Shown: positions 9,824 through 27,075 of the stretch, in pieces
How positions within the stretch are numbered: the stretch's first letter is position 1
Layout: the number at the start of each line of letters is the position of its first letter
IMG/VR virus record: IMGVR_UViG_3300006790_000058
Coordinates: 1-34,701 of that record
Source of the DNA: a virus
Length of the DNA stretch: 34,701 nt
Direction: 5' to 3' (one strand)
Translations under genes and position numbers: made by a program
The notes under the pieces: generated by a model
The model's database searches: none
The model's input: only the letters and a program-made list of their open reading frames with translations
What the model was told of the DNA's origin: nothing

Positions 9824-10029
9824 TATGCATGCTCCGCGTCGTAAATCCTGCGTTTGTCTGCGATTGGCAAATGGGTAAACCAATGATCCCACTTCTTTGT
9901 TAGTATCGCTTCAATCTTTCCGTCTGCTTCTGATTGTATAAGTTCATCTGTTGTTATCTCTTTGGTAGTAGCAATAGCATCCAGTTCTGCTTTTGCCTCA
10001 TCATCATATTGTATAGTCGTGCTGTTCAT
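9823..10029 (-). CDS. Unknown small acidic protein
   Basis: 68 residues. N-terminal acidic helix (YDDEAKAELDAIATTKEI), then KWDHWFTHLPIADKRRIYDA. The ATG at 10029 overlaps the fibre gene stop in an ATGA arrangement, so it is probably translated after the fibre and could be a fibre-associated protein. This is inferred from position alone. Confidence 0.6.
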   Translation of the reverse strand: MNSTTIQYDDEAKAELDAIATTKEITTDELIQSEADGKIEAILTKKWDHWFTHLPIADKRRIYDAEHA

Positions 10030-11987
10030 TGTTCTTCGCCCCTTTCGAGCAAACTGATACGCGCATTTTGTTTCTGGACTAAATCCAAGAGAAGGATTGT
10101 TAGTTGTGCATTTCTCACTGAGTATGGCAGACCCTCTTTGAGGTTTGCAAGCTCTGGTATTTCTCTTGCCACTTCTTCAGCGATAAGACCAAAATCATCC
10201 ATCCCTGCACTACCACTATGCTCTGCCCAAGTAAAATCCTTTACGTTGAGGTTGAGCAATTTTGAACTGTCAACAGACAATGGACGCTCATTGTCTTTCC
10301 ATCGCCTTGACGATGTAACAGAATGCAGTTCGTTTGATCCGTTGATGTTTACGTCTGTAGAAGCAGCAGCAGCAAGCAAGTTGTAGGCATAAATACCACC
10401 GTCAGAGTGAATCCTAAACTGCTCTGTGCCTGTTCTGGTTGTTACGCCTGAAGCAGTATAAAAACGAATGGATGTTGCTGTGTTGTATGACGCATTGCCA
10501 CCACCAACGAAAATAACATTCTCGCTTGGGTCGCCCTGTGAACCAAGCAACTGCCAACCTTCTGATTCTGCGTCACTCGCATAGTTGCGAGTGATAAACG
10601 AATACAGCTTTGAAACGTTATTGCCACCTACATCACTGTATCGACTCACACCGTCAAGCCCATTAACGTCAATATCATACGACCCTTGCCCACTCGTTGC
10701 CCCAATGGTCAGGTTTTGTGCAAGACCAACTTGACCGCTTGCGTTAATGCCGATGCTCTGCGTTCCCCCGTTAGTTATCGTTATAACATCAGAGCCAGCA
10801 AAAGTTATGTTAGTATCAGCATCAGCATCACCAACAATGCTATCCACGTCAATTTGCCCAACATTAGTGATGTTGTTGTCACCAACATTTAAAGTGCCAC
10901 CAAGCGTTAGGCTTGTTAGCGTTCCAAGACTTGTCACATTCGTTTGTGCTGCTGTTTGCAATGTTCCTGTAAGTTGGGAAGCTACAACACCTGTTGTAAC
11001 AGTAATGTCATCGACATACAAGTTTGCCCATCGTACAGAAGTTGTGCCTAAATCATCCGTAGAATCCGTATCGCTAACAACATTTCCACCGTGCGTAGTA
11101 ACACCAGTAAAGGTCGTTGTTGTCGATACCGTCAAAGCACCTGTAATTGCAACTGTTCCAGCAGTCACATTGACATTGTTTGCGCCAGCAGTAACCGTCA
11201 GTGCTTGCCCCGTATCACCAATGCTGTCAACATAAAGGTTTGCCCAACGCACAGAAGTTGTGCCTAAATCGTCCGTAGAATCCGTATCGCTAAGGATGTT
11301 GCCACCCGTTACAATACCTGTTGTGGGGGCTGTCGCATTGTCTGTGCTTATCCCACCAACAAAGCGCACATCATCAACGCCATCTTGCACATCGAAGATC
11401 GTGCCATCTGTGCCACCACCATCCACACTTGTTGATCTAAACTGGAACTGTGTTCCTGAGTTGTTGTATACCAACCAATAGTCTGTGCCAGCACCAAATT
11501 GGAGTTGGTCATCGTCACCCATTGCGTATGTGCCACTCGCTGTGAGTGTGCCGGTGACTTCCATGTCACCCGTAACGATCAACTTATCAGCACTCTCATC
11601 CCAGGTCATGTTCTTGCCACTTGTCGCACCGTAGAAGATCACATCGTGACCCGTATCGTCGGCACCTACCGTAATGCCACCGTTGACCTGAACGACTCCT
11701 GAGCCCACTGCATTTGGCTCTATGACCAAGTTTGTAGCATCGTAGTAGATCTCCGCATCAGACCCTGTGCCAAAAATCGCTTTTACATTGTCATTGAACG
11801 TCTTTGCAGCAGTCAGTGTCTGTGCCGTATCAACCACCATGATCGCATCAGAACTGGTCTTATCTACATTGGCACTGTCAAGGTTGCCATTGACAAGCCC
11901 CAATACGGTTGTCCAGTTGCTGTTCCAATTCGCTGCTGTGGGAACAGCCCCAAATACAAATGAATATGTCTGCGATATTAAGCCCAT
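10026..11987 (-). CDS. Tail fibre/spike with C-terminal S74 self-cleaving chaperone
   Basis: 653 residues. The C-terminal ~95 residues match the intramolecular chaperone/peptidase S74 domain. SSRRWKDNERPL contains the Ser (about 559) and the Lys five residues on (about 564) expected for autocleavage, followed by NVKDFTWAEHSG, FGLIAEEVAREIPEL and a coiled-coil end. In this family the chaperone trimerises the fibre and then cuts itself off. The rest is a Thr/Val/Gly/Asp-rich beta-repeat shaft. GGN..SDTDSTDDLGTTSVRW occurs twice, from an 80-bp DNA repeat of period 216. The ATG at 11987 has AGGAG upstream. Host-receptor binding is the expected role. Confidence 0.85.
   Translation of the reverse strand: MGLISQTYSFVFGAVPTAANWNSNWTTVLGLVNGNLDSANVDKTSSDAIMVVDTAQTLTAAKTFNDNVKAIFGTGSDAEIYYDATNLVIEPNAVGSGVVQVNGGITVGADDTGHDVIFYGATSGKNMTWDESADKLIVTGDMEVTGTLTASGTYAMGDDDQLQFGAGTDYWLVYNNSGTQFQFRSTSVDGGGTDGTIFDVQDGVDDVRFVGGISTDNATAPTTGIVTGGNILSDTDSTDDLGTTSVRWANLYVDSIGDTGQALTVTAGANNVNVTAGTVAITGALTVSTTTTFTGVTTHGGNVVSDTDSTDDLGTTSVRWANLYVDDITVTTGVVASQLTGTLQTAAQTNVTSLGTLTSLTLGGTLNVGDNNITNVGQIDVDSIVGDADADTNITFAGSDVITITNGGTQSIGINASGQVGLAQNLTIGATSGQGSYDIDVNGLDGVSRYSDVGGNNVSKLYSFITRNYASDAESEGWQLLGSQGDPSENVIFVGGGNASYNTATSIRFYTASGVTTRTGTEQFRIHSDGGIYAYNLLAAAASTDVNINGSNELHSVTSSRRWKDNERPLSVDSSKLLNLNVKDFTWAEHSGSAGMDDFGLIAEEVAREIPELANLKEGLPYSVRNAQLTILLLDLVQKQNARISLLERGEEQ
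11011..11306. repeat. 80-nt direct repeat, period 216, in the fibre gene
   Basis: 11011-11090 and 11227-11306 are near-identical, with the core cagaagttgtgcctaaatc conserved exactly. The period of 216 equals 72 codons, so the repeats add an in-frame shaft unit. This could allow copy-number change by recombination. Confidence 0.85.
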
Positions 11988-11989
11988 AT

Positions 11990-13864
11990 CTACTCCTGAA
12001 TAGTCGAAAGGTCTGTCAAGACATCTGAGCCACGATTTTGTAAACGCTCCAACGCTGCACCTACCGTAATTCCACCTTTGAGCAAGTGCGGTGGAATTTT
12101 TTCCCGCACTTTCTGCAATCCTTGAATTACCTTGCTGGCTTTTGCGCGAGGCATTCCCATTGTTACCTGCGCTATAATTCTCGGAGATGAAGCTGTCAAT
12201 AATGGCAAAGCCAATGCTGCTGAAGGTATTGCAGCACTTAACCCAAAGATGCCTCCTCCGGTAAGTCCTGCTGCCCCAAGAAACTGGATGTGTGATAAAA
12301 ATTGACTTTGAGGTGGGAAAATTTCTCTTGCCTTATATCCCAATACGATGGGAATAACTTCTCTGTTCCTGTCAAGATTTTCCAATAACGCAACATTTTC
12401 TTTTTCAAACCCACTTTCGTAGATACCGATCATCTTCTTTGCAGTTGTCTGTGGATCTTGGTCTGGTCGAATGGAGAATCTGCGCGTTATTTCATCAAGC
12501 TTGCGAGTCTCAACACGATATCCCTCGTTCAGATCCAACAACTGCTGTGCTTCAGGTAAATCGTGCTTTTTGGCAGCATCAGCAATTGCAGTGCGAATCT
12601 TTCCCGTTGCTCGTGCAAGCAACATATCACCAAGACCTGAATCCAAGAAATCTTTACTCTTTTGCAATGCCCCCAAGTTCAACAATGCTTGGCGCATATC
12701 CCTTAAAGACCCGTTTTTAAGCTTGTTTGCTTCTCGCAATATCGCTTCAGCAGCAGTTTTATCACCAGCAACATATGGTGAGAAATTTTCTACATCGACT
12801 TCTTCTGGCAACTTGCGCCCTACAACCATACCAGGCACTTCAACCGTTTCTGCATCGGGCACCCTAATCTCAAAACTCCCCGTATCTACAATTTCCGACT
12901 TCCGATTCTTGACCACAACACCGGAAGTTTCAAGAATATCTTTCATGCCCTCCTTAACACTTTCCCAACCAGGCACTTCTACCGACAAGTCTATTCTTGC
13001 AAGCCCTTGCCCAAACTCTGTTGTTTGAGCACTGCGTCTATCTCTGACAAGTTCTCTGGCTTTGTCAGCAGCAACTGTTGGAGAGATGTTCTCTGCAATT
13101 GCACCATTAAATTTCTCCATCTGTGCTGGATTATTGGCTATTTCTCTTAATTGTTTTTTTGCTTCTACAGGCAATCCAGCTTTTTTATTCATAGCATTGA
13201 TCAATGCTATCGGTGCATTCTTTGTCGCTTGAACGAGTTGACCACCCTTGTCTTTCACTTTTGACAAAGTCTGCATCACATTTGATGAAATCCGATTGTC
13301 TTCAAGGAGATCGGTATCAATACCATCTGCACCATCGCCCGAAAAACGCTTTCTTTTCTTCAATGCGTTTTTCATCGCACCCATTCCACCCTTGGTCAAA
13401 AAAGCATCAGCAGCAAGACCCGCAATATCACCTTGTTCAAAACGATCTTTGACATTGAAAGTCTCCAATGCTCCCATTGCCAATTGCTTGCGACCCTCAC
13501 GATCTGTTAACATGCCAGGAATAGAAGCAAGTGCAGGGAGGAAGTTTGCAAAAGAGCTTGCCGTTTCTCCCGTTTTCTGTTCTACCTGTTCCATCGAAGG
13601 GAATTTCACGCGCGGATTTGCAACCGTGTTCAATCCAATCTGCAATGCCCGATTAACAAGCGCACCACCCGTATCGGTGATCTCGTCAAGAATACCCCCC
13701 TCTTCTTCTTGGACATCCGATGCAGTGACACCACGACTGCGAAGCAGATCGATCTTCTCTTGACGCGACATCTTGTCAATATCAGTAACCGCATTATTTG
13801 AGATGTGGCGTACACCACGCTCGCGCAACAGTTTTATCTTCTCTGCACGACTGAGTTCAGCCAT
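11990..13864 (-). CDS. Probable internal virion/ejection protein with N-terminal repeat
   Basis: 624 residues. The N-terminus has two copies of a short unit: LSRAEKIKLLRERGV and MSRQEKIDLLRSRGV. The middle is helical and charged. Near the C-terminus lies a long Gly/Ala/Leu-rich stretch of about 45 residues (from FLGAAGLTGGGIFGLSAAI to ALALPLLTASSPRIIAQV) that could enter membranes. In podoviruses the large genes between nozzle and fibre usually encode internal proteins ejected into the host, and this fits. No lysozyme motif was seen. TAATG coupling to the gene upstream. Position-based assignment. Confidence 0.5.
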   Translation of the reverse strand: MAELSRAEKIKLLRERGVRHISNNAVTDIDKMSRQEKIDLLRSRGVTASDVQEEEGGILDEITDTGGALVNRALQIGLNTVANPRVKFPSMEQVEQKTGETASSFANFLPALASIPGMLTDREGRKQLAMGALETFNVKDRFEQGDIAGLAADAFLTKGGMGAMKNALKKRKRFSGDGADGIDTDLLEDNRISSNVMQTLSKVKDKGGQLVQATKNAPIALINAMNKKAGLPVEAKKQLREIANNPAQMEKFNGAIAENISPTVAADKARELVRDRRSAQTTEFGQGLARIDLSVEVPGWESVKEGMKDILETSGVVVKNRKSEIVDTGSFEIRVPDAETVEVPGMVVGRKLPEEVDVENFSPYVAGDKTAAEAILREANKLKNGSLRDMRQALLNLGALQKSKDFLDSGLGDMLLARATGKIRTAIADAAKKHDLPEAQQLLDLNEGYRVETRKLDEITRRFSIRPDQDPQTTAKKMIGIYESGFEKENVALLENLDRNREVIPIVLGYKAREIFPPQSQFLSHIQFLGAAGLTGGGIFGLSAAIPSAALALPLLTASSPRIIAQVTMGMPRAKASKVIQGLQKVREKIPPHLLKGGITVGAALERLQNRGSDVLTDLSTIQE

Positions 13865-19445: not shown

Positions 19446-20159
19446 TTAAGAGCTCAAAGACCCTTCGTTGACGTTGAAGTTAAAGTTCTGCCGTACAAAT
19501 ATCTCCCCAGGTCTACCCATACGGTCAGGGGTATTACCACTCTCTGCTTCTGCGTCTACTTTCAAGCTGTTCTGTATTGCCCGTTCATACAGCAGATAAT
19601 CGGTCTGCTCACCATTGAGATCACCGAGCTCTCCCTTGTATTGCGAAGAGATGAAGTATATCAGCGCATTCTGCGCCCAAGGTGGCAATGTCGCAGCAAG
19701 GTCAGTCGCATCGTCACTGCTCGTCTTATCAGCGATAAAGGCAAAATATCGGTATGTTATCGTTGTTGCAGAGTCGTCAGGGATCGGATATACATCAACA
19801 GTCCAGTATCCTGTTGTGGCATTTATCCCTGCCAAATACACCACGCGAGGGTTGCCCGTTTCATCGGCATCTGGATCGGCACGATCAACAACGCTTGCAT
19901 CTACCATATCCATCGTGTGGTTGTCTGTGGTGTTGATAAACGACAACGGGCGCATCACATCAGATGCCAATGAGTAGTTGCGCGTAGAAGCAACAGTGGT
20001 AAACGTGCTCGACTTGAAAAGCCATTTCCATGCTCTTCGTTCTGATAGATCACGCAGTCCGACATTGAAATAGTCTCTGGCATTGTTCAAAAAAGCAGAT
20101 GCTTCTTCATTCAATCCCACCCTACGCAATGCCATTGTCATCACTTTATTAAGTGTCAT
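19446..20159 (-). CDS. Head-tail adaptor-like protein (tubular A-like)
   Basis: 237 residues. The N-terminal helix (MTLNKVMTMALRRVGLNEEA) and LRDLSERRAWKWLFKSSTFT are typical of the gp11/connector-type proteins. They are followed by a beta region YSLASDVMRPLSFINTTD and TTITYRYFAFIADKT, then a helix (PPWAQNALIYFISSQY). This layout matches adaptor proteins that bind the portal and start the tail tube. Its ATG overlaps the upstream TGA (ATGA), and the nozzle-like gene follows. Confidence comes from the pattern and its neighbours. Confidence 0.55.
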   Translation of the reverse strand: MTLNKVMTMALRRVGLNEEASAFLNNARDYFNVGLRDLSERRAWKWLFKSSTFTTVASTRNYSLASDVMRPLSFINTTDNHTMDMVDASVVDRADPDADETGNPRVVYLAGINATTGYWTVDVYPIPDDSATTITYRYFAFIADKTSSDDATDLAATLPPWAQNALIYFISSQYKGELGDLNGEQTDYLLYERAIQNSLKVDAEAESGNTPDRMGRPGEIFVRQNFNFNVNEGSLSS

Positions 20160-20596
20160 TCAAACACCTCGCCAATATCGTCGATATAATATCCCATCAC
20201 GTTCATGTGTATATCATCATCATCGGTTTTGCCATTGACATATACACCCTTGTTGACAATGATGTTCAAGCTCCCCATCGGGAAAATATCCCCTTGCACC
20301 ATTGCCAACTGGAACAGTATGCGATCAACAGTTGTCGATGAAACGCTTGTCGCCTCATAGACAATAACGGTGGCATCTACCGTTGCAGAAACTTGCTTAT
20401 CAGCGCGAGCAAAAAAGCCTGTGATAACGAATTGCTTGCCCTGCTTGGGCATGTAAAAGTTGTATGCCGTATCGGGTTCTGCCAACTCGTTGAACTTTGT
20501 CAAATCATAGTTTAATGGAGCAACAACAAGCTGACCGGAGGGGGTCACCCTTGCCTTTACCTCATTATCGCCTGAAATAACAACGGGCATTGCCAT
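20156..20596 (-). CDS. Unknown virion-associated protein
   Basis: 146 residues, beta-rich (MPVVISGDNEVKARV, KQFVITGFFARADKQ, ATVDATVIVYEAT). A beta-sandwich of head-decoration or fibre type is plausible but not recognised. The neighbour at 20596-21144 has the same size range and similar composition, so the two may be related. The ATG at 20596 shares a base with the previous TAA. Structural role inferred from location. Confidence 0.5.
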   Translation of the reverse strand: MAMPVVISGDNEVKARVTPSGQLVVAPLNYDLTKFNELAEPDTAYNFYMPKQGKQFVITGFFARADKQVSATVDATVIVYEATSVSSTTVDRILFQLAMVQGDIFPMGSLNIIVNKGVYVNGKTDDDDIHMNVMGYYIDDIGEVFE

Positions 20597-21144
20597 TAGA
20601 CAACTTCTCCATAATGCCCCGTGATCGTTACACTGCCCTCTACAACACTCGCTTCTACAACGTCAACAGCAATTGCATGTGTGTCTACAAGGTCATAACC
20701 TCGCAAGTCCAATGTGATATTTTCATCAACACCAAGAGACACGTAACGGATGATATTTGCTACCGTAATACTGTTACCAGTTTCATCAGCATACGCTTCT
20801 GCTTTGGCAAGCTTGCTAAACTCCGTGTTCATAGGGAATCCAACAACTTCTGTTCCAGCAGAGGTATATGCTGTTTTGACGATGTGAACCTTATACACGC
20901 TTGCAACAGAACCAGTAGAGATATAACATTCTGTAATGTGCAATGTCCTATCAGAATCTGTATTCTTCACTGCCAGCATGGTATCGTTAGCAGATGTGGT
21001 ATAAGGAACACTTGTCCAACTGTATGCTTGCCCAAGAGTAGCAGCATGTTCTATTTCAAGTTCTTCAATTGAACGCACTGTCGCTTCGCCATCATCCAAC
21101 ACGTTCAGAGTATTGCCGTTTTCTCCACCTTTTATGACAGCCAT
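20596..21144 (-). CDS. Unknown virion-associated beta-rich protein
   Basis: 182 residues. N-terminus MAVIKGGENGNTLNVLDDG, then alternating strands (TLHITECYISTGSVASV, NITLDLRGYDLVDTHAIAV, GSVTITGHYGEVV). No family recognised. The ATG at 21144 has AAGGA 8 nt upstream. It lies between glycosyltransferase-linked genes and adaptor-like genes. A small head or tail accessory protein is likely. Confidence 0.5.
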   Translation of the reverse strand: MAVIKGGENGNTLNVLDDGEATVRSIEELEIEHAATLGQAYSWTSVPYTTSANDTMLAVKNTDSDRTLHITECYISTGSVASVYKVHIVKTAYTSAGTEVVGFPMNTEFSKLAKAEAYADETGNSITVANIIRYVSLGVDENITLDLRGYDLVDTHAIAVDVVEASVVEGSVTITGHYGEVV

Positions 21145-21156
21145 CGTTTTGTCCTT

Positions 21157-21570
21157 TTAGTATTGTTCTTCGACATCATCGTCTGAGAGTTCATCATCGT
21201 TAAACTCTGCCAAATACTCGTTGACCTTCAACAATTGTGTCATCAGATGATCAAGGTCTATGCCGACATCGACAGCGATTTTGCCATCATCGGTCACTTG
21301 CACCGTTTTCGAGTCTCCGTTTAACGTTTCACCTGTCATGGGGCTTATACAATCTGTTGAAGTGTTGCCATCCGTGTCTGTGCGTTTGATACACAGGCGA
21401 TTATTTGTCTTGTCATACCACATCAGCGCATGACCTGACGGTGGGTCTGCTGGAGTGTCTGTTCTCCCAACGAAGAGCAGTTCACCAAACGAGAGCAAAG
21501 AACCATCACCAGAAAAACCTGTCGCATCTAATATCTCTGGATTACGAGAAAATTGTCCTTCTGGTGGCAT
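21157..21570 (-). CDS. Unknown acidic virion-associated protein
   Basis: 137 residues. Middle part HALMWYDKTNNRLCIKRTDT has the look of a beta-hairpin module found in fibres. The C-terminus is very acidic (FNDDELSDDDVEEQY). The ATG at 21570 has AGGGG 7 nt upstream. No family recognised. Confidence 0.5.
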   Translation of the reverse strand: MPPEGQFSRNPEILDATGFSGDGSLLSFGELLFVGRTDTPADPPSGHALMWYDKTNNRLCIKRTDTDGNTSTDCISPMTGETLNGDSKTVQVTDDGKIAVDVGIDLDHLMTQLLKVNEYLAEFNDDELSDDDVEEQY

Positions 21571-21580
21571 ATTCTATCCC

Positions 21581-22012
21581 CTACATCTGAGCAGTAGCAA
21601 TCATCTCTTCGATTTGTGCTTCGTTTGCATGATCCCAATTCTTCACGTTGCCGTCTAACCACTGCTGTTGCCAGGCATGTACGGCTTGCTCACCCAGTTC
21701 GGTAATATGTTCAGGGGGATTGGGCACAAAACCTTCAGGATGTGCTGCACCACCTGTTGCCAATGCCATATTCTTGATCTCTTCTTCGGTGACACGTTTT
21801 TTTCGCCTTTTTGGGGCACCAATAACTTTTGATATGCCCACCGCTTCAGCAAATGCTGCTTTGTCATCATCACTTGCATGTGCCAATGCATCACGGATAT
21901 CTGAAAGAGAGATTTTAGGAGTATCAACCACTGGTTCTGACACCTCTGAAATGTCAGGCACTGGCAAGTCCATAGGTTCTTGGGAGTTCTTTTTGGTCGC
22001 TTGTTTCGCCAT
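21581..22012 (-). CDS. Unknown protein overlapping the GT4 gene
   Basis: 143 residues from ATG 22012, with AAGGA about 9 nt upstream. N-terminus Lys/Glu/Pro-rich (MAKQATKKNSQEPMDLPVP), a basic patch (GAPKRRKKRVTEEE), then a helical C-terminus (LGEQAVHAWQQQWLDGNV). It overlaps the upstream glycosyltransferase by 59 nt in another frame. Position would allow an accessory of the glycosyltransferase cassette or a virion protein; neither can be shown. Confidence 0.5.
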   Translation of the reverse strand: MAKQATKKNSQEPMDLPVPDISEVSEPVVDTPKISLSDIRDALAHASDDDKAAFAEAVGISKVIGAPKRRKKRVTEEEIKNMALATGGAAHPEGFVPNPPEHITELGEQAVHAWQQQWLDGNVKNWDHANEAQIEEMIATAQM

Positions 22013-22913
22013 GAGAAGTATCCTTGTAAATAGTGTGTAGTGTGTTCTGCCCACTTGCGACATTCGCATAGGACAGGTATTTGTCTACAACATTTTTTGC
22101 ATCGTGATGCTCTCTTACCCATGCAACAAGAGGTTCTTGGTCGTTGTCGGGGCAATTTCTGAGCATATCGGCAAGACCGTCAGCATCTAAGTTTAAAGAA
22201 GTCGCACGACCCGAATAGTTGTTCTGTGCAGAATGTCCGACATTTTCTGGTGTTATCCATCCATCACTGTGATGGTCGCCATTATACGATAATACCTGCA
22301 CACCACAAGCCATTGCTTCTACAACACCGCGTCCTGCCGTGATGACATATGAATATTCTGGTAACAGCTTCCATATCTCATCGACAGGGTTTTCTCTGTA
22401 GTGAGCAATGTCAAAGTCGATGCCGGCACGTTGACAGGCATGTGCTGCTGTTCTCATCGCATCGGTGCGTTTTGGCATGATCAATACCTTGCCATTGCGT
22501 TGATTGTCGGTGTATTTAAACTTGTCGAGGTCTATGGGTTGTCTGATGACATCAGCGAGATATCCCTGCTCTGCTTGTACCATGACAACTTCTTCTGATA
22601 CGCCCACATAGTGGTCAGCCCCACCACAGGTGCGCTCTAATGGGTGTAGTGGACCGTGAGAAGTGAACACCCGTGTGCCTTCTAACCGTTTGAAATGAGA
22701 AAATCCTACGCATGTGTTGTGGTTTATAATGATAACATCATACTCTGTTGCGCTCAGTTCCGTATATGTAGGACATGGCATGTCCAAACCGGTCATAAAA
22801 GACCATGCAGATACGTTGTGTCCTTTGTCCATTGCTGCTTTTGCCAATGTCTGTGTCCATGTTTGCGTACCACCAATTTCACGCAAGTCACGCGTCATAA
22901 ACAGAACATTCAT
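21954..22913 (-). CDS. GT-B fold glycosyltransferase (GT4-like)
   Basis: 319 residues. The N-terminal half starts MNVLFMTRDLREIGGTQTW, the Gly-Gly-containing loop of GT4-type enzymes, and continues DVIIINHNTC and VFTSHGPLHPLERT. The C-terminal half has VLIMPKRTDAMRTA and ITAGRGVVEAMACGVQVLSY, the E-x-x-x-x-G nucleotide-sugar region (Glu about 199). These are features of retaining GT4 enzymes that transfer sugar from an NDP-sugar. Substrate and acceptor are unknown. It overlaps the next cassette gene by 26 nt and the following gene by 59 nt, so it is fully embedded in the virion operon. Confidence 0.8.
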   Translation of the reverse strand: MNVLFMTRDLREIGGTQTWTQTLAKAAMDKGHNVSAWSFMTGLDMPCPTYTELSATEYDVIIINHNTCVGFSHFKRLEGTRVFTSHGPLHPLERTCGGADHYVGVSEEVVMVQAEQGYLADVIRQPIDLDKFKYTDNQRNGKVLIMPKRTDAMRTAAHACQRAGIDFDIAHYRENPVDEIWKLLPEYSYVITAGRGVVEAMACGVQVLSYNGDHHSDGWITPENVGHSAQNNYSGRATSLNLDADGLADMLRNCPDNDQEPLVAWVREHHDAKNVVDKYLSYANVASGQNTLHTIYKDTSHGETSDQKELPRTYGLASA

Positions 22914-23682
22914 TGTTACCCCACTTTACAAAGTGTTTTTCCAACTCGTTGCGCTCAGAAATATATTCAAGTTCGCCATATGGATTACCATAGTCGTCTT
23001 TCATTAGCACCTTAGAAACATTGGGATGCTTGTCATCATAAATGCGCCTTGCATAGTCGCGATCTTTTGGGTCTAAGTCGCCATGTGCTATTGTCGCACC
23101 GAAATGTACCCACCGATCAATGCCTAATATGTCGCAATATTCACAAAAGAAAGAGTCTGTCGGATGTGGCCCCCACTGCAAGAAGGGATTATATCCAGCC
23201 TCTTCCATGCGATCAAAAACGTCTATCTTCACCAAAGTAAATGCCCAGGTCAGCAGGTCCGTTTTTTGCACTTCTGCACCATTGCCACGCTCAAAAGGCA
23301 AAAGAAGGTCGGGATTGCTCTTCTTTGTCAGCGATATCAAACTGGCATCGTCAGATTTTTTACGACAACACATCGAATGCCAGGGAAAGTCTTTGTAATA
23401 TGTCTGGAATCCGATAACATCTTTGTCTTCTTCGAGCAAGACATCCAAACCGTCTATGGGATATCCCCACTGATCATCTTCTGTAAACAAGATGTGTGAG
23501 CACCCTTGCTCTCTTGCAACAAACAATGCCCTTGCCTGTGCCTTGTGGAGTGCCTGTTGGTATATCCGCAAACGCTTCAGATTGTGCTTGTTGCGATTGA
23601 GGGCATACCACTCGATGAAGTGCTCCATATGTTTTTCGTTGACCTTCATCCAAGGTACAAAGACGAGTATCGGATCATTCAC
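22888..23682 (-). CDS. GT-A-like glycosyltransferase
   Basis: 264 residues from GTG 23682, with AAAGGA 8 nt upstream. The N-terminal half holds YQQALHKAQARALFVAREQG and CSHILFTEDDQWGYPIDGLD, the acidic DxD-like metal/nucleotide-sugar motif of GT-A enzymes (about 66-71). LTWAFTLVKIDVFDRMEEAG and TDSFFCEYCDILG are further typical parts. Probably a GT2-type transferase. It sits between the GT4 gene and the dioxygenase gene, 15 nt after the latter. Acceptor unknown. Confidence 0.7.
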   Translation of the reverse strand: MNDPILVFVPWMKVNEKHMEHFIEWYALNRNKHNLKRLRIYQQALHKAQARALFVAREQGCSHILFTEDDQWGYPIDGLDVLLEEDKDVIGFQTYYKDFPWHSMCCRKKSDDASLISLTKKSNPDLLLPFERGNGAEVQKTDLLTWAFTLVKIDVFDRMEEAGYNPFLQWGPHPTDSFFCEYCDILGIDRWVHFGATIAHGDLDPKDRDYARRIYDDKHPNVSKVLMKDDYGNPYGELEYISERNELEKHFVKWGNNECSVYDA

Positions 23683-23697
23683 GCTGACATCCTTTAA

Positions 23698-24477
23698 CTA
23701 TTCATAAGGGATAAGCTCCGTGTCAATGGAGAGGTCAGGGTATGGCAACCACTGCTCACAGGCAGATGCTTTGCAAAACCCGTTCATGTATGTCATCCTG
23801 CTCATGTGCGAAGTGTTCTTGCCCGACCCGTGAACGGTTAGCGCATTCCACACCAACACATCACCAGGTTCTGCCTCTATTGTCACTACCGGCATCGGGT
23901 TCTCTGCTTCTGGTGAGTCAAAAATCACAGGAGGACCGTCTGGTGTTCGCAACCGTGACTTGTCACATAAATCAAGATCTGTACACCTGTGAGAACCCAA
24001 TACAAATGATATGCCCCCATTTTCCCGTGTCATCGGATCGATGCATATCACCGTCTGTAAATAATCTGCCGGATCGAAATTGTCTGTCATCGCCTTACGA
24101 AACATGACATCTTGGTGGTATGCAAAGGCATCACCGTCATTGGGCATTCGGTAATACATCTGGTTATTGAGTTGCTTGACCTCACTCCCCAAAAACTCGT
24201 GAACGATGGTGACAAGCTCTTTACTGCACCTTATAAGGTTCAAAAAGGTGTTCTGTATCGAAGGAAAAAACAGCAAAGCAGGTGATCCTTGCGGGGATAC
24301 TTGCAAGCGACCACCACTGCAATAGGGATGTTTAGGATGCGCGTTTAGCAAGCACATATACGCTTCACTACGCATACGGCAGATGTCTTCGTAGTCGAAT
24401 ACACCCGCAATACGTGCTACACCATCGCGGTCATATTCTCTTTTTGCCTGTTCAAACCTGTCCACGTTTCTTCCCAT
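23698..24477 (-). CDS. PhyH-family Fe(II)/2-oxoglutarate dioxygenase
   Basis: 259 residues. The fold is shown by EYDRDGVARIAGVFDYEDI at the N-terminus, and the double-stranded beta-helix active site: FAYHQDVMF supplies H121 and D123, ALTVHGSGKN supplies the distal H216, and SRMTYMNGF has R227, which should hold 2-oxoglutarate. DPMTRENGGISFVLGSHR is the family's typical turn. PhyH enzymes hydroxylate small molecules such as lipids, sugars and antibiotic precursors. This is not a TET/JBP-type enzyme. The gene overlaps the upstream glycosyltransferase by 61 nt. It likely tailors a product of the glycosyltransferases, which is inference. Confidence 0.88.
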   Translation of the reverse strand: MGRNVDRFEQAKREYDRDGVARIAGVFDYEDICRMRSEAYMCLLNAHPKHPYCSGGRLQVSPQGSPALLFFPSIQNTFLNLIRCSKELVTIVHEFLGSEVKQLNNQMYYRMPNDGDAFAYHQDVMFRKAMTDNFDPADYLQTVICIDPMTRENGGISFVLGSHRCTDLDLCDKSRLRTPDGPPVIFDSPEAENPMPVVTIEAEPGDVLVWNALTVHGSGKNTSHMSRMTYMNGFCKASACEQWLPYPDLSIDTELIPYE

Positions 24478-25163
24478 CGTATTAGAGGGTCACCGTTGTC
24501 ACTCATAAAATTGCTCTTTACTGCCTTCCCTCTGCGACTATTCCATTTGTCTATATACCCAGGATGCCCAAACTCTTCAGCATAATATGAGCACTTCTTC
24601 TCCCACTGTTCTACACTCCACCCTTTACCGAAATGCTTTATTCTCCCTGTTGTTGCGCGACCACCAACACGATGGTTCATAATGCGTTGATCGGGTCGCG
24701 AGAAAGAGCAAGAGGCATCTGCGCGAAAGAAAAAGCCTATCATTCTTGGTATCGGATCTACCCACTGCCGATCTTCAGGATCACCGTCTACATCTTCAGG
24801 GGTGATGTGTACATCAAAAAGTGGGATGTCGATGCGAACAATACGAGGGTCTGCAAGAGGTTCCCTGTCGAAGTCATACAACCATTCGTCACCATCGAAG
24901 TAGCACACCCAATCGGGCTTGAAGCGGAGAGCAGACTGTAAGATAAGATTCCTGTTATACCACTCTGCTCTTAGCCTGTTGGGGTCGAGGTAATCGGAAG
25001 TGACCACCTCGACCACCACAGGATGTTTCTTGCATATCTGTACAGTGTCATCAGTGCTGGCATCATCGTATACGTGTATCGCATCACAGTATTGCGCCCA
25101 GTTGTCGAGCGTCTTCCCTATGATGTGTGCCTCGTTACGAACTTTTGTCAGCCCGATTATCAC
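24417..25163 (-). CDS. GT2-family glycosyltransferase
   Basis: 248 residues from GTG 25163, which shares a base with the upstream TAG and has GAGG 8 nt upstream. N-terminus MIIGLTKVRNEAHIIGKTLD is the typical GT2 opening, then DDASTDDTVQI. VCYFDGDEWL at about 87-95 is the DxD motif (D90, D92). RIVRIDIPLF, SCSFSRPDQRIMNHR and HFGKGWSVEQWEKKCSYYAEE follow. GT2 enzymes transfer sugar from NDP-sugars by inversion. Acceptor unknown. First gene of the cassette after the decoration-like gene. Confidence 0.85.
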   Translation of the reverse strand: MIIGLTKVRNEAHIIGKTLDNWAQYCDAIHVYDDASTDDTVQICKKHPVVVEVVTSDYLDPNRLRAEWYNRNLILQSALRFKPDWVCYFDGDEWLYDFDREPLADPRIVRIDIPLFDVHITPEDVDGDPEDRQWVDPIPRMIGFFFRADASCSFSRPDQRIMNHRVGGRATTGRIKHFGKGWSVEQWEKKCSYYAEEFGHPGYIDKWNSRRGKAVKSNFMSDNGDPLIRWEETWTGLNRQKENMTAMV

Positions 25164-26023
25164 TATTCAAGCCTCAACCATACAGGAGCATATTCAGTAT
25201 CAGCAGCAGCAGACAACCACTCACCAACAATACCTTCTGTCGTCAACTGAGCAAGGTTCTCTTCTGATGCAGCAGTTCCTTGACCCATAACAGTCAAAGC
25301 ACCGTTGACACCATCACTGACTACTGCAATACTGTTGATGGCTACTGTGCCGGCAGATTCGTCAACGAGAGCATATCCTGTTCCGCGTGTCAAAATCCAA
25401 GCATACTCAGCAGCAGCAACATCTACCATTGTCAGCCCACGAACAGGACTATCGCTATTTGCAACGGCAATTGTCATATTCTTGAATGGATGACCAACAA
25501 TACCACAAGATGTCTGTGAGTCGAGAGCAACAGCAAGACCGTCATAAAGTTCAAACTTTATCAACCCTTGCGTTTCACTGAGATCACCAACGGAGCTTGT
25601 CTTAATACGATACGTATGCCCTTCACCTTGATCATCGGTAATGCCGAAATAACCACCAGCATAGTTGTTGACAACATCTGTGTCGGACGCAAACACGGTA
25701 GAGTCGCGAACATAGATGGTTTTGTCACCAACAGCATATGTGTCTTTAGCAGCACCGGCAGAGTCAACAAACTTACCGTCTATACTCGCCACATTTGTCA
25801 AAGAGACATCTTGGGCAGCCATCTTGCCAGGACCACATGCTGTCGAAAAATATGCATAGCGGAAGCAACGACCATCTTCAAACTCCATCTTGTGACCAAG
25901 AGGGTAGTTTTGCGTTGTCGAGACATCATAGATGCCTTGTTTGGAGTTGCCACCACTGATCCCACCGAGTCCAGAAATGTGGGAGTTGTTATCTGCTCCA
26001 CCTGCTTGAAAATTCCATGCCAT
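25163..26023 (-). CDS. Virion protein next to the major capsid protein
   Basis: 286 residues, beta-rich, Gly/Ser/Ala/Thr-rich, with no recognised motif (MAWNFQAGGADNNSHISGLG at the start, AVALDSQTSCGIVGHPFKNM further on). Location directly after the major capsid gene suits a decoration or minor capsid protein. The ATG at 26023 has a strong AAGGAG 8 nt upstream. A 37-nt hairpin lies between the two genes. Glycosylation of this or other capsid proteins by the following cassette is conceivable but unproven. Confidence 0.55.
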   Translation of the reverse strand: MAWNFQAGGADNNSHISGLGGISGGNSKQGIYDVSTTQNYPLGHKMEFEDGRCFRYAYFSTACGPGKMAAQDVSLTNVASIDGKFVDSAGAAKDTYAVGDKTIYVRDSTVFASDTDVVNNYAGGYFGITDDQGEGHTYRIKTSSVGDLSETQGLIKFELYDGLAVALDSQTSCGIVGHPFKNMTIAVANSDSPVRGLTMVDVAAAEYAWILTRGTGYALVDESAGTVAINSIAVVSDGVNGALTVMGQGTAASEENLAQLTTEGIVGEWLSAAADTEYAPVWLRLE

Positions 26024-26094: not shown

Positions 26095-27075
26095 TTAGCT
26101 AATCGTATCACCAGAACCAAGACGACGACGATTGTTAGAAGTCAATTGGATGCCAACCACGATGAAGGCAACTTTCGCCAACTGGTTGGAAGGTTCTTTG
26201 AATGGTGTTTTCGCAAAGTTCAACGAGCGTTCAATAGAAAGCTTGATGTATTTGCTGTTTAAGCAGTAAAGATTCGCAGCAGGGCAATCCCGATCGTACC
26301 ATACGGGAGCATTGCGGTACATCAGATTGTTGTTGGTCTTCTGTGTGCCAAGACCTTTGCCCTCGCGTTGTTCAGTACGTGCATATCCGGTGCCTTCGAG
26401 GATATTTTCATATTCCCCGAAAGTCGTCAGAGTCATCACGATACCGTCAGGTTGCGTGTTACCTTCTGAGCAGTTGTTATACAACGTGCCGAGGGCTTTC
26501 AAGCCCGTATAAGAAGGAGCAGAAGCAGCATCGAAGTCACCGATACTTTGATTTTGACTTCTCCACCACGTTTCACTTCCTGCATTGATACCACCAACTG
26601 TTCCCGTTGTAGGGTCGTCAGGCATCAAGTCCTGAAAGCCGAGGATCGACTTGCCCGTCTGTGCAGAGAAGAGTGCTGCATTGATGGTGTCGCGGGTAGT
26701 GTTCATCGACTGCGTTGTTTTGGCAACCAGCAGTTTTTCGGCACCTTCCGACTTCTTGTTTTCAGTCTCTTCAGTCATCGAAATGGTGATAGGCGTAGCA
26801 ATGTATCGACGAGGATAGAATGCTGCGGTGATGCCATCAACAGCATCGGTGTTGAGGGTGTCATACCCATCGAACCATTCCGAACTGTTGGTGCCATACA
26901 TCAGATCTTCTTTGATCTCTTTGCCACCATTTTCAAGCACCACACGCCCACTTTGTCGGAACCAGGCGAGGGTGGGATACTCATCAAAAATATTGTCAGT
27001 AAGCTTCTTTCGGTGTGCCCGCATGGTCAATGTCCACGCAGCATCCCATGTTTCTGTTGTGCTTGTCGCTGCCAT
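26095..27075 (-). CDS. Major capsid protein
   Basis: 326 residues. The pattern of tailed-phage capsid proteins (HK97-fold class) is clear: a helical N-terminus (AHRKKLTDNIFDEYPTLAWF), then VVLENGGKEIKEDLMYGTNS, PRRYIATPITISMTEETENK, NAALFSAQTGKSILGFQDLM and LNSKYIKLSIERSLNFAKTP. It follows a scaffold-like gene and precedes a decoration-like gene, as expected. The ATG at 27075 has AAGGA 8 nt upstream. No delta-domain or protease is fused. High confidence in role; exact family is by pattern. Confidence 0.85.
   Translation of the reverse strand: MAATSTTETWDAAWTLTMRAHRKKLTDNIFDEYPTLAWFRQSGRVVLENGGKEIKEDLMYGTNSSEWFDGYDTLNTDAVDGITAAFYPRRYIATPITISMTEETENKKSEGAEKLLVAKTTQSMNTTRDTINAALFSAQTGKSILGFQDLMPDDPTTGTVGGINAGSETWWRSQNQSIGDFDAASAPSYTGLKALGTLYNNCSEGNTQPDGIVMTLTTFGEYENILEGTGYARTEQREGKGLGTQKTNNNLMYRNAPVWYDRDCPAANLYCLNSKYIKLSIERSLNFAKTPFKEPSNQLAKVAFIVVGIQLTSNNRRRLGSGDTIS

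Follow-up and report, generated by a model that had tools for sequence, protein, structure and literature searches.

Three glycosyltransferases and a dioxygenase in a phage virion operon: a candidate module for glycosylating a presumed decoration protein

Why would a phage place three glycosyltransferase (GT) genes and a gene for a PhyH-type Fe(II)/2-oxoglutarate (2OG) dioxygenase among the genes for its particle? The question is raised by the window, the whole 34,701-nt stretch of IMGVR_UViG_3300006790_000058, to which all window coordinates below refer. The four open reading frames (ORFs) are collinear, all on the (-) strand, and lie where the original prediction had placed them: a GT2-family enzyme (GT2, 24417..25163), the dioxygenase (PhyH, 23698..24477), a GT-A-fold enzyme that we call GTA (22888..23682) and a GT4-like (GT-B) enzyme (GT4, 21954..22913). 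That prediction suggested that they act together, perhaps building and hydroxylating a glycan on the virion, on a host polysaccharide or on DNA. We propose that the enzymes probably build a tailored glycan on the product of the adjacent gene deco (25163..26023, (-), 286 aa), a presumed capsid decoration protein encoded directly after the major capsid protein (MCP, 26095..27075, (-)), and that they form a capsid-adjacent, exchangeable virion-glycosylation module. The window phage may thus sugar-coat its own particle, unlike most of its close relatives.

Site occupancy and co-inheritance with deco

The flanks of the cassette form a virion operon running from TerL through the MCP, deco, the cassette and a series of small genes to an adaptor-like gene (19446..20159, (-)) whose gene order is conserved in relatives. 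TerL and the MCP were recognised by PHROGs, the latter as the major head protein phrog_9953 (8.6e-47). The cassette had been predicted to lie between capsid/decoration and adaptor genes, and it does, but four small genes (21581-22069, 21157-21570, 20596-21144 and 20156-20596) intervene before the adaptor-like gene. The first of these, g21581 ((-) strand; a start at 22012 is likely, with better upstream sequence than 22069), also occurs in relatives in which the site is empty.

We sampled IMG/VR by taking the 80 best MCP relatives, and further bearers of the cassette were found by scans with the cassette GTs. Only one of the 80 (L059) carried cassette GTs. The site was empty in all 61 MCP relatives that hold both the MCP and the adaptor-like gene, with an MCP-adaptor interval of 1,182-2,073 nt compared to ~5.9 kb in the window, and in the nearest cassette-less phage (L056/L057; MCP 82% and adaptor 89% identical) g21581 directly follows deco. 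We did not see the cassette genes scattered in cassette-less relatives; the site was empty instead. Variants of the window GT set occupy the same site in ~10 other contigs, which excludes a chance grouping of the genes. In several cassette-less relatives (L058, L060-L067, L120, L125, L127, L128 and L130-L132), the product of the gene after the MCP has 150-160 aa and was not recognised as homologous to deco, suggesting that the decoration slot itself is exchangeable.

The history of deco differs from that of the phages that carry it. The window deco is 41-47% identical to the decos of bearers L136, L142, L148 and L159, whose MCPs are only 33-36% identical to that of the window, and it is 36% identical to the deco of L056 despite the 82% identical MCP. 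The deco tree places the 11 bearers together in a single clade (support 100/100; 100% of bootstrap trees), and a grouping of the window with L059 and L056 is rejected (approximately unbiased test, p-AU 9e-4). In the MCP tree, the bearer label requires three changes and a single bearer clade is rejected (p-AU 9e-36), while the trees of the portal, g21581 and adaptor agree with the phage backbone. Alignment columns had to be filled in at least 30% of rows to be kept; a column filled by the 11 bearers alone reaches 29.7% of rows and was excluded, so insertions found only in bearers do not drive the deco tree; the decos of L143 and L144 are identical, so the 11 bearers represent 10 distinct decos. 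Because the deco tree unites the bearers and the other virion genes follow the backbone, we conclude that deco and the cassette constitute one exchange unit, whose borders, as read from the genomes compared, are between the MCP and deco upstream and between GT4 and g21581 downstream. The GTs are in this sense genetically linked to a virion protein, an indirect pointer to their acceptor. The prediction that the genes belong together is supported, and most likely their products make a modified glycan.

The structural model of deco is mostly beta, with a predicted local distance difference test score (pLDDT) of 82.5. Its Foldseek matches are weak (all E >= 0.01) but all point to decoration or cement-type proteins of phage heads; they comprise head proteins from Sf11, HFTV1, Pam3, phiCD508 and XM1 together with the base of the phi29 head fibre. 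A comparison of the deco sequence with the PDB gave no credible match. Bearer decos are longer than those of empty-site relatives (means of 282 and 258 residues), and an alignment of 11 bearers with 11 empties revealed an extra loop, window residues 246-256 (MGQGTAASEEN; 25256..25288, (-)), that is filled in most bearers and missing from most empties. The model is poorly ordered there, with low pLDDT around residues 250-260, and the loop is a candidate acceptor region. Ser/Thr content did not differ between bearer and empty-site decos, and hence offers no sequon argument.

The enzymes and the variable tailoring step

Gene calls, Pfam and fold matches, and sequence motifs agree with the predicted set of three GTs of different types and a PhyH enzyme in mostly overlapping genes. 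The overlaps are 1 nt (deco/GT2), 61 nt (GT2/PhyH) and 26 nt (GTA/GT4), and a 15-nt gap separates PhyH from GTA. GT2 (248 aa, GTG start) matches Glyco_tranf_2_4 (PF13704; 3.1e-11, 44.1 bits, above the cut-off of 27.5), with a DxD motif, D90-x-D92, invariant across its alignment; in a profile search of the PDB, designed repeat proteins, none with a significant stretch, ranked first and marginal GT2 enzymes came next. PhyH (259 aa) matches PF05721 (2e-19, 71.2 bits, above the cut-off of 22), and its iron triad and 2OG-binding arginine (H121-x-D123, H216 and R227) are invariant in 9 relatives. GT4 (319 aa) falls below the Glyco_transf_4 cut-off of 28.5 (3e-4, 21.3 bits); its homologues in L140 and L145 score 49-56 bits against the same cut-off, and G194-R195 and E199 are invariant across its alignment. 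GTA (264 aa, GTG start) belongs to a family with no Pfam match. Its AlphaFold model is of low confidence (pLDDT 59, predicted template modelling score 0.63), and the best Foldseek matches of that model are the GT-A enzymes LH3, ColGalT1, Mnn9 and STIV A197; E68-D69-D70 and H200 are invariant across its alignment. Inactivating changes in most of the enzymes, which would have spoken against a joint function, were not seen. The window thus encodes GTs with intact motifs, as do virion glycosylation systems.

None of the four enzymes contains a hydrophobic, membrane-like segment, and no lipid-carrier GT, flippase or membrane transferase was recognised among the cassette genes, suggesting that transfer is likely to proceed from cytoplasmic nucleotide sugars. 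The cassette showed no DNA similarity to phage records, and tblastn with GTA, GT2 and GT4 (the last represented by its L136 homologue) found no relative in 50,697 deposited phage records. No GTA was confirmed in bacterial genomes. In the viral scan for GT4, a single-sequence query found no relatives and an alignment query found them.

Comparison of the bearers showed that GTA and GT4 are the usual core of the cassette and that GT2 is common. L146 has the window set minus PhyH (deco-GT2-GTA-GT4), and L137 adds to this order a candidate GT without a Pfam match (GTx) near the adaptor. The order is deco-GT2-methyltransferase (MT)-GTA-MT-GT4 plus GTx in L138; deco-GT2-MT-sulfotransferase-GTA-MT fragment-GT4-GTx in L165; deco-MT-GTA-GT4 in L136; deco-GTA-GT4 in L142, L159 and L059; and deco-GTA in L143 and L144, the latter with an MT after GTA. 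In L148, deco is followed by a single 796-aa protein (11275-13665) that joins a sulfotransferase, an MT and GTA, and then by GT4. L148 and L165 are the only bearers in which a sulfotransferase was seen. The four genes predicted as a set are therefore not a fixed one: the exact combination of GT2, PhyH, GTA and GT4 was found in the window only. No PhyH was found in the other bearer records, several of which are fragments, and among capsid relatives the window alone has one; the other bearers carry MTs and/or a sulfotransferase, or no recognised tailoring enzyme. These gene orders indicate that the GTs are the constant part and that the tailoring step varies, and all the tailoring enzymes seen, the three-domain fusion included, are of kinds used on sugars.

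What might PhyH modify? Its 55 viral relatives (L001-L055; 33-41% identity) show the order MT-NodB deacetylase-PhyH in 46 contigs, and in most of these contigs a gene for a protein of ~205 aa follows PhyH, assigned to GT2 by Pfam in L002. This gene group is widespread in environmental phages, usually followed by the GT2-like gene. Across 84,980 genomes, only four relatives of PhyH appeared. Two are on short contigs of metagenome-assembled genomes (MAGs) and keep the MT-NodB-PhyH order; a third comes from a Patescibacteria MAG, and the fourth, from Nostoc, has MT and NodB genes as neighbors. The MT, NodB and GT2 neighbors tie this PhyH subfamily to sugar-modifying genes, and a sugar or glycan is its likeliest substrate.

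Proposed mechanism and competing targets

On the simplest account of these gene arrangements, deco would receive the glycan and the cassette would be the machinery dedicated to glycosylating it. The late operon would produce the capsid protein, then the decoration protein, and then the soluble GTs and the tailoring enzyme. The GTs would attach a short glycan to deco in the cytoplasm, before or after deco binds the head, using nucleotide sugars that would come from the host. PhyH would hydroxylate the sugar or, less likely, a side chain of the acceptor, and other phages would use methylation or sulfation at this step. The outcome would be a chemically distinct glycan coat on the head. We infer from the genes the roles of deco as decoration protein and acceptor, the order of the steps, the structure of the glycan and its benefit to the phage. 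More tentatively, deco and its dedicated GTs may be a horizontally exchanged glyco-coat module of tailed phages that moves as a unit between divergent capsid backbones, with a plug-in slot for hydroxylation, methylation or sulfation giving interchangeable surface glycotypes, in possible analogy to capsule or O-antigen switching in bacteria.

Several points weigh against glycosylation of deco. The glycan on the particle is proposed from genes, and deco itself was assigned by its position and weak fold matches alone. PhyH substrates vary widely. Empty-site contigs were chosen for the similarity of their MCPs and bearers partly for that of their GTs, with distant MCP clades sampled only for bearers. 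Finally, the co-inheritance might be mere linkage of neighboring genes, although the MCP and g21581 border the unit as closely as deco does and yet did not travel with it.

This last observation also bears on the best of the alternatives, namely that the cassette glycosylates another virion protein (the MCP, the small proteins at 20156-21144 or tail proteins) and that deco is merely its neighbor. Deco is indeed physically adjacent to the cassette, glycans occur on both capsid and tail-tube subunits in mycobacteriophages according to PMC12619734, and in phage MW202801 the protein encoded ahead of the GT-PhyH cassette has 123 aa and was not recognised as related to deco. We nevertheless consider another acceptor unlikely, given that the equally close MCP and g21581 were not carried along and that the proteins at 20156-21144 (182 and 146 aa; virion operon, (-)) had no detectable relatives in the other loci compared, other bearers included.

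Somewhat more doubtful is the possibility that the enzymes remodel a polysaccharide on the host surface, perhaps to exclude superinfecting phages or to mask a receptor. Bacterial polysaccharide clusters likewise contain enzymes of the NodB, MT, GT2 and sulfotransferase types, and the Nostoc relative of PhyH has MT and NodB neighbors. As noted above, the four enzymes have no membrane-like segments and no lipid-carrier GT, flippase or membrane transferase was recognised in the cassette, and none of its genes gave a Pfam match of the Gtr type that underlies serotype conversion of the host O-antigen. Moreover, its placement in the virion operon and its co-inheritance with a virion protein argue for a target on the particle.

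The window also encodes a C5-cytosine DNA methylase (1025-2320, (-); PF00145, 2.9e-32), raising the possibility of DNA hypermodification in which the methylase makes 5-methylcytosine (5mC), the dioxygenase oxidises it and the GTs glycosylate the product. The combination of a C5 methylase, a 2OG dioxygenase and GTs is suggestive, and hypermodification of DNA by phage GTs is known (Pyle et al. 2024, as cited in PMC12619734). The methylase was found in none of 24 related records, however, including bearer contigs of 28-37 kb, and most bearers keep the GTs without any PhyH. The dioxygenase matches PhyH in Pfam and gave no TET/JBP match, so that the C5 methylase and TET/JBP-type dioxygenase of a 5mC pathway are not conserved with the GTs. 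DNA modification would also leave the late-operon placement and the co-inheritance of deco unexplained, and we regard it as very unlikely. Of the three targets originally suggested, the virion, and specifically deco, is thus favored, and host polysaccharide and DNA are less likely. That unrelated morons gather without joint function at a morphogenesis-neutral cargo site between deco and g21581 would fit a site that is empty in most relatives and varies in content, but is hardly credible given recognised content that is repeatedly GTs and sugar-tailoring enzymes, the overlapping genes, the sulfotransferase-MT-GTA fusion, the intact motifs and the covarying deco.

Elsewhere in the window, on the (-) strand, we noted a Sigma-70-type factor with regions 2 and 4 by Pfam (360-1142), suggesting that the phage may encode its own sigma factor, and a candidate tail fibre or spike protein with a Peptidase_S74 chaperone domain at its end (10026-11987; 1.8e-6).

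Relation to known systems

GTs also lie beside head genes in other phages. In an unrelated group with a different major head protein, phrog_1328 (L140, L145, L147 and L149-L151), the head protein gene is followed by one for a repeat-rich head-fibre-like protein, then by GT4, GT2, a gene for a small conserved protein and a further GT; the repeats of the head-fibre-like protein include GAVTSAKIG, and one member has an extra MT. In L156, portal and major head protein (phrog_10) genes are followed by GT4 and GT2. One of the closest known systems is that of Podoviridae sp. ctQWt234 (MW202801.1, Manatee Spring), which has a GT and a PhyH (39% identical) between its major capsid and tail genes, in the order MCP, 123-aa protein, radical SAM, GT, PhyH, MT, NodB-like, GT. 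It differs from the window in its MCP, which belongs to phrog_1357, and in its genes for NodB and radical SAM enzymes; homologues of GTA and deco were not detected in it. It is annotated, but we found no description of its cassette as a system. The original statement that no described system with exactly this set is known in a short-tailed phage needs a qualification: the exact set was found in the window only, but a GT-PhyH cassette does exist in the virion operon of MW202801.1. The MT-NodB-PhyH-GT2 group of L001-L055 likewise places the same PhyH subfamily beside sugar enzymes; it adds an MT and a NodB deacetylase, whereas capsid adjacency is seen for the window cassette.

Two enzymatic precedents resemble the window in part. 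LH3 and the collagen-modifying enzymes of mimivirus share the logic of a 2OG hydroxylase paired with a GT, and LH3 and ColGalT1 are among the best fold matches of GTA. The LH3 hydroxylase, however, is of the procollagen-lysine family rather than PhyH, and no collagen-like protein was identified at the window site. We did not adopt the collagen-hydroxylation analogy, given this different dioxygenase family and the weak GTA model. Phage DNA hypermodification likewise combines oxygenase and GT genes, and differs in its TET/JBP enzymes, in the C5 methylase that the relatives of the window lack, and in the late-operon position of the window genes.

The established case of virion glycosylation by phage GTs is a recent one, that of the mycobacteriophages (Che8, Rita and relatives; Freeman et al. 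2023, as cited in PMC11256854, PMC12619734 and PMC10877033). Those phages, like the window, encode GTs for structural proteins of the particle, demonstrated there and proposed here from genes. According to the same sources, the mycobacteriophage enzymes act on capsid and tail-tube subunits, and their genes map close to the 3' end of the genome, a position stated for Maravista. In contrast, GTs of the window type lie between decoration and adaptor genes, swap together with deco and include a variable dioxygenase, sulfotransferase or MT step. The covariation of deco with the enzymes names a concrete acceptor candidate, and the pairing of a decoration type with adjacent GTs provides a genomic signature by which environmental data can be searched for sugar-coated phages. 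If phage coats are indeed hydroxylated or sulfated, this would matter for particle stability, adhesion and recognition. In the literature searched, which left out most subscription journals, we came across no exchangeable GT cassette that is coupled to a decoration protein and includes a dioxygenase or sulfotransferase step. Phage virion glycosylation as such is already known; the decoration-coupled, modular arrangement appears to be new.

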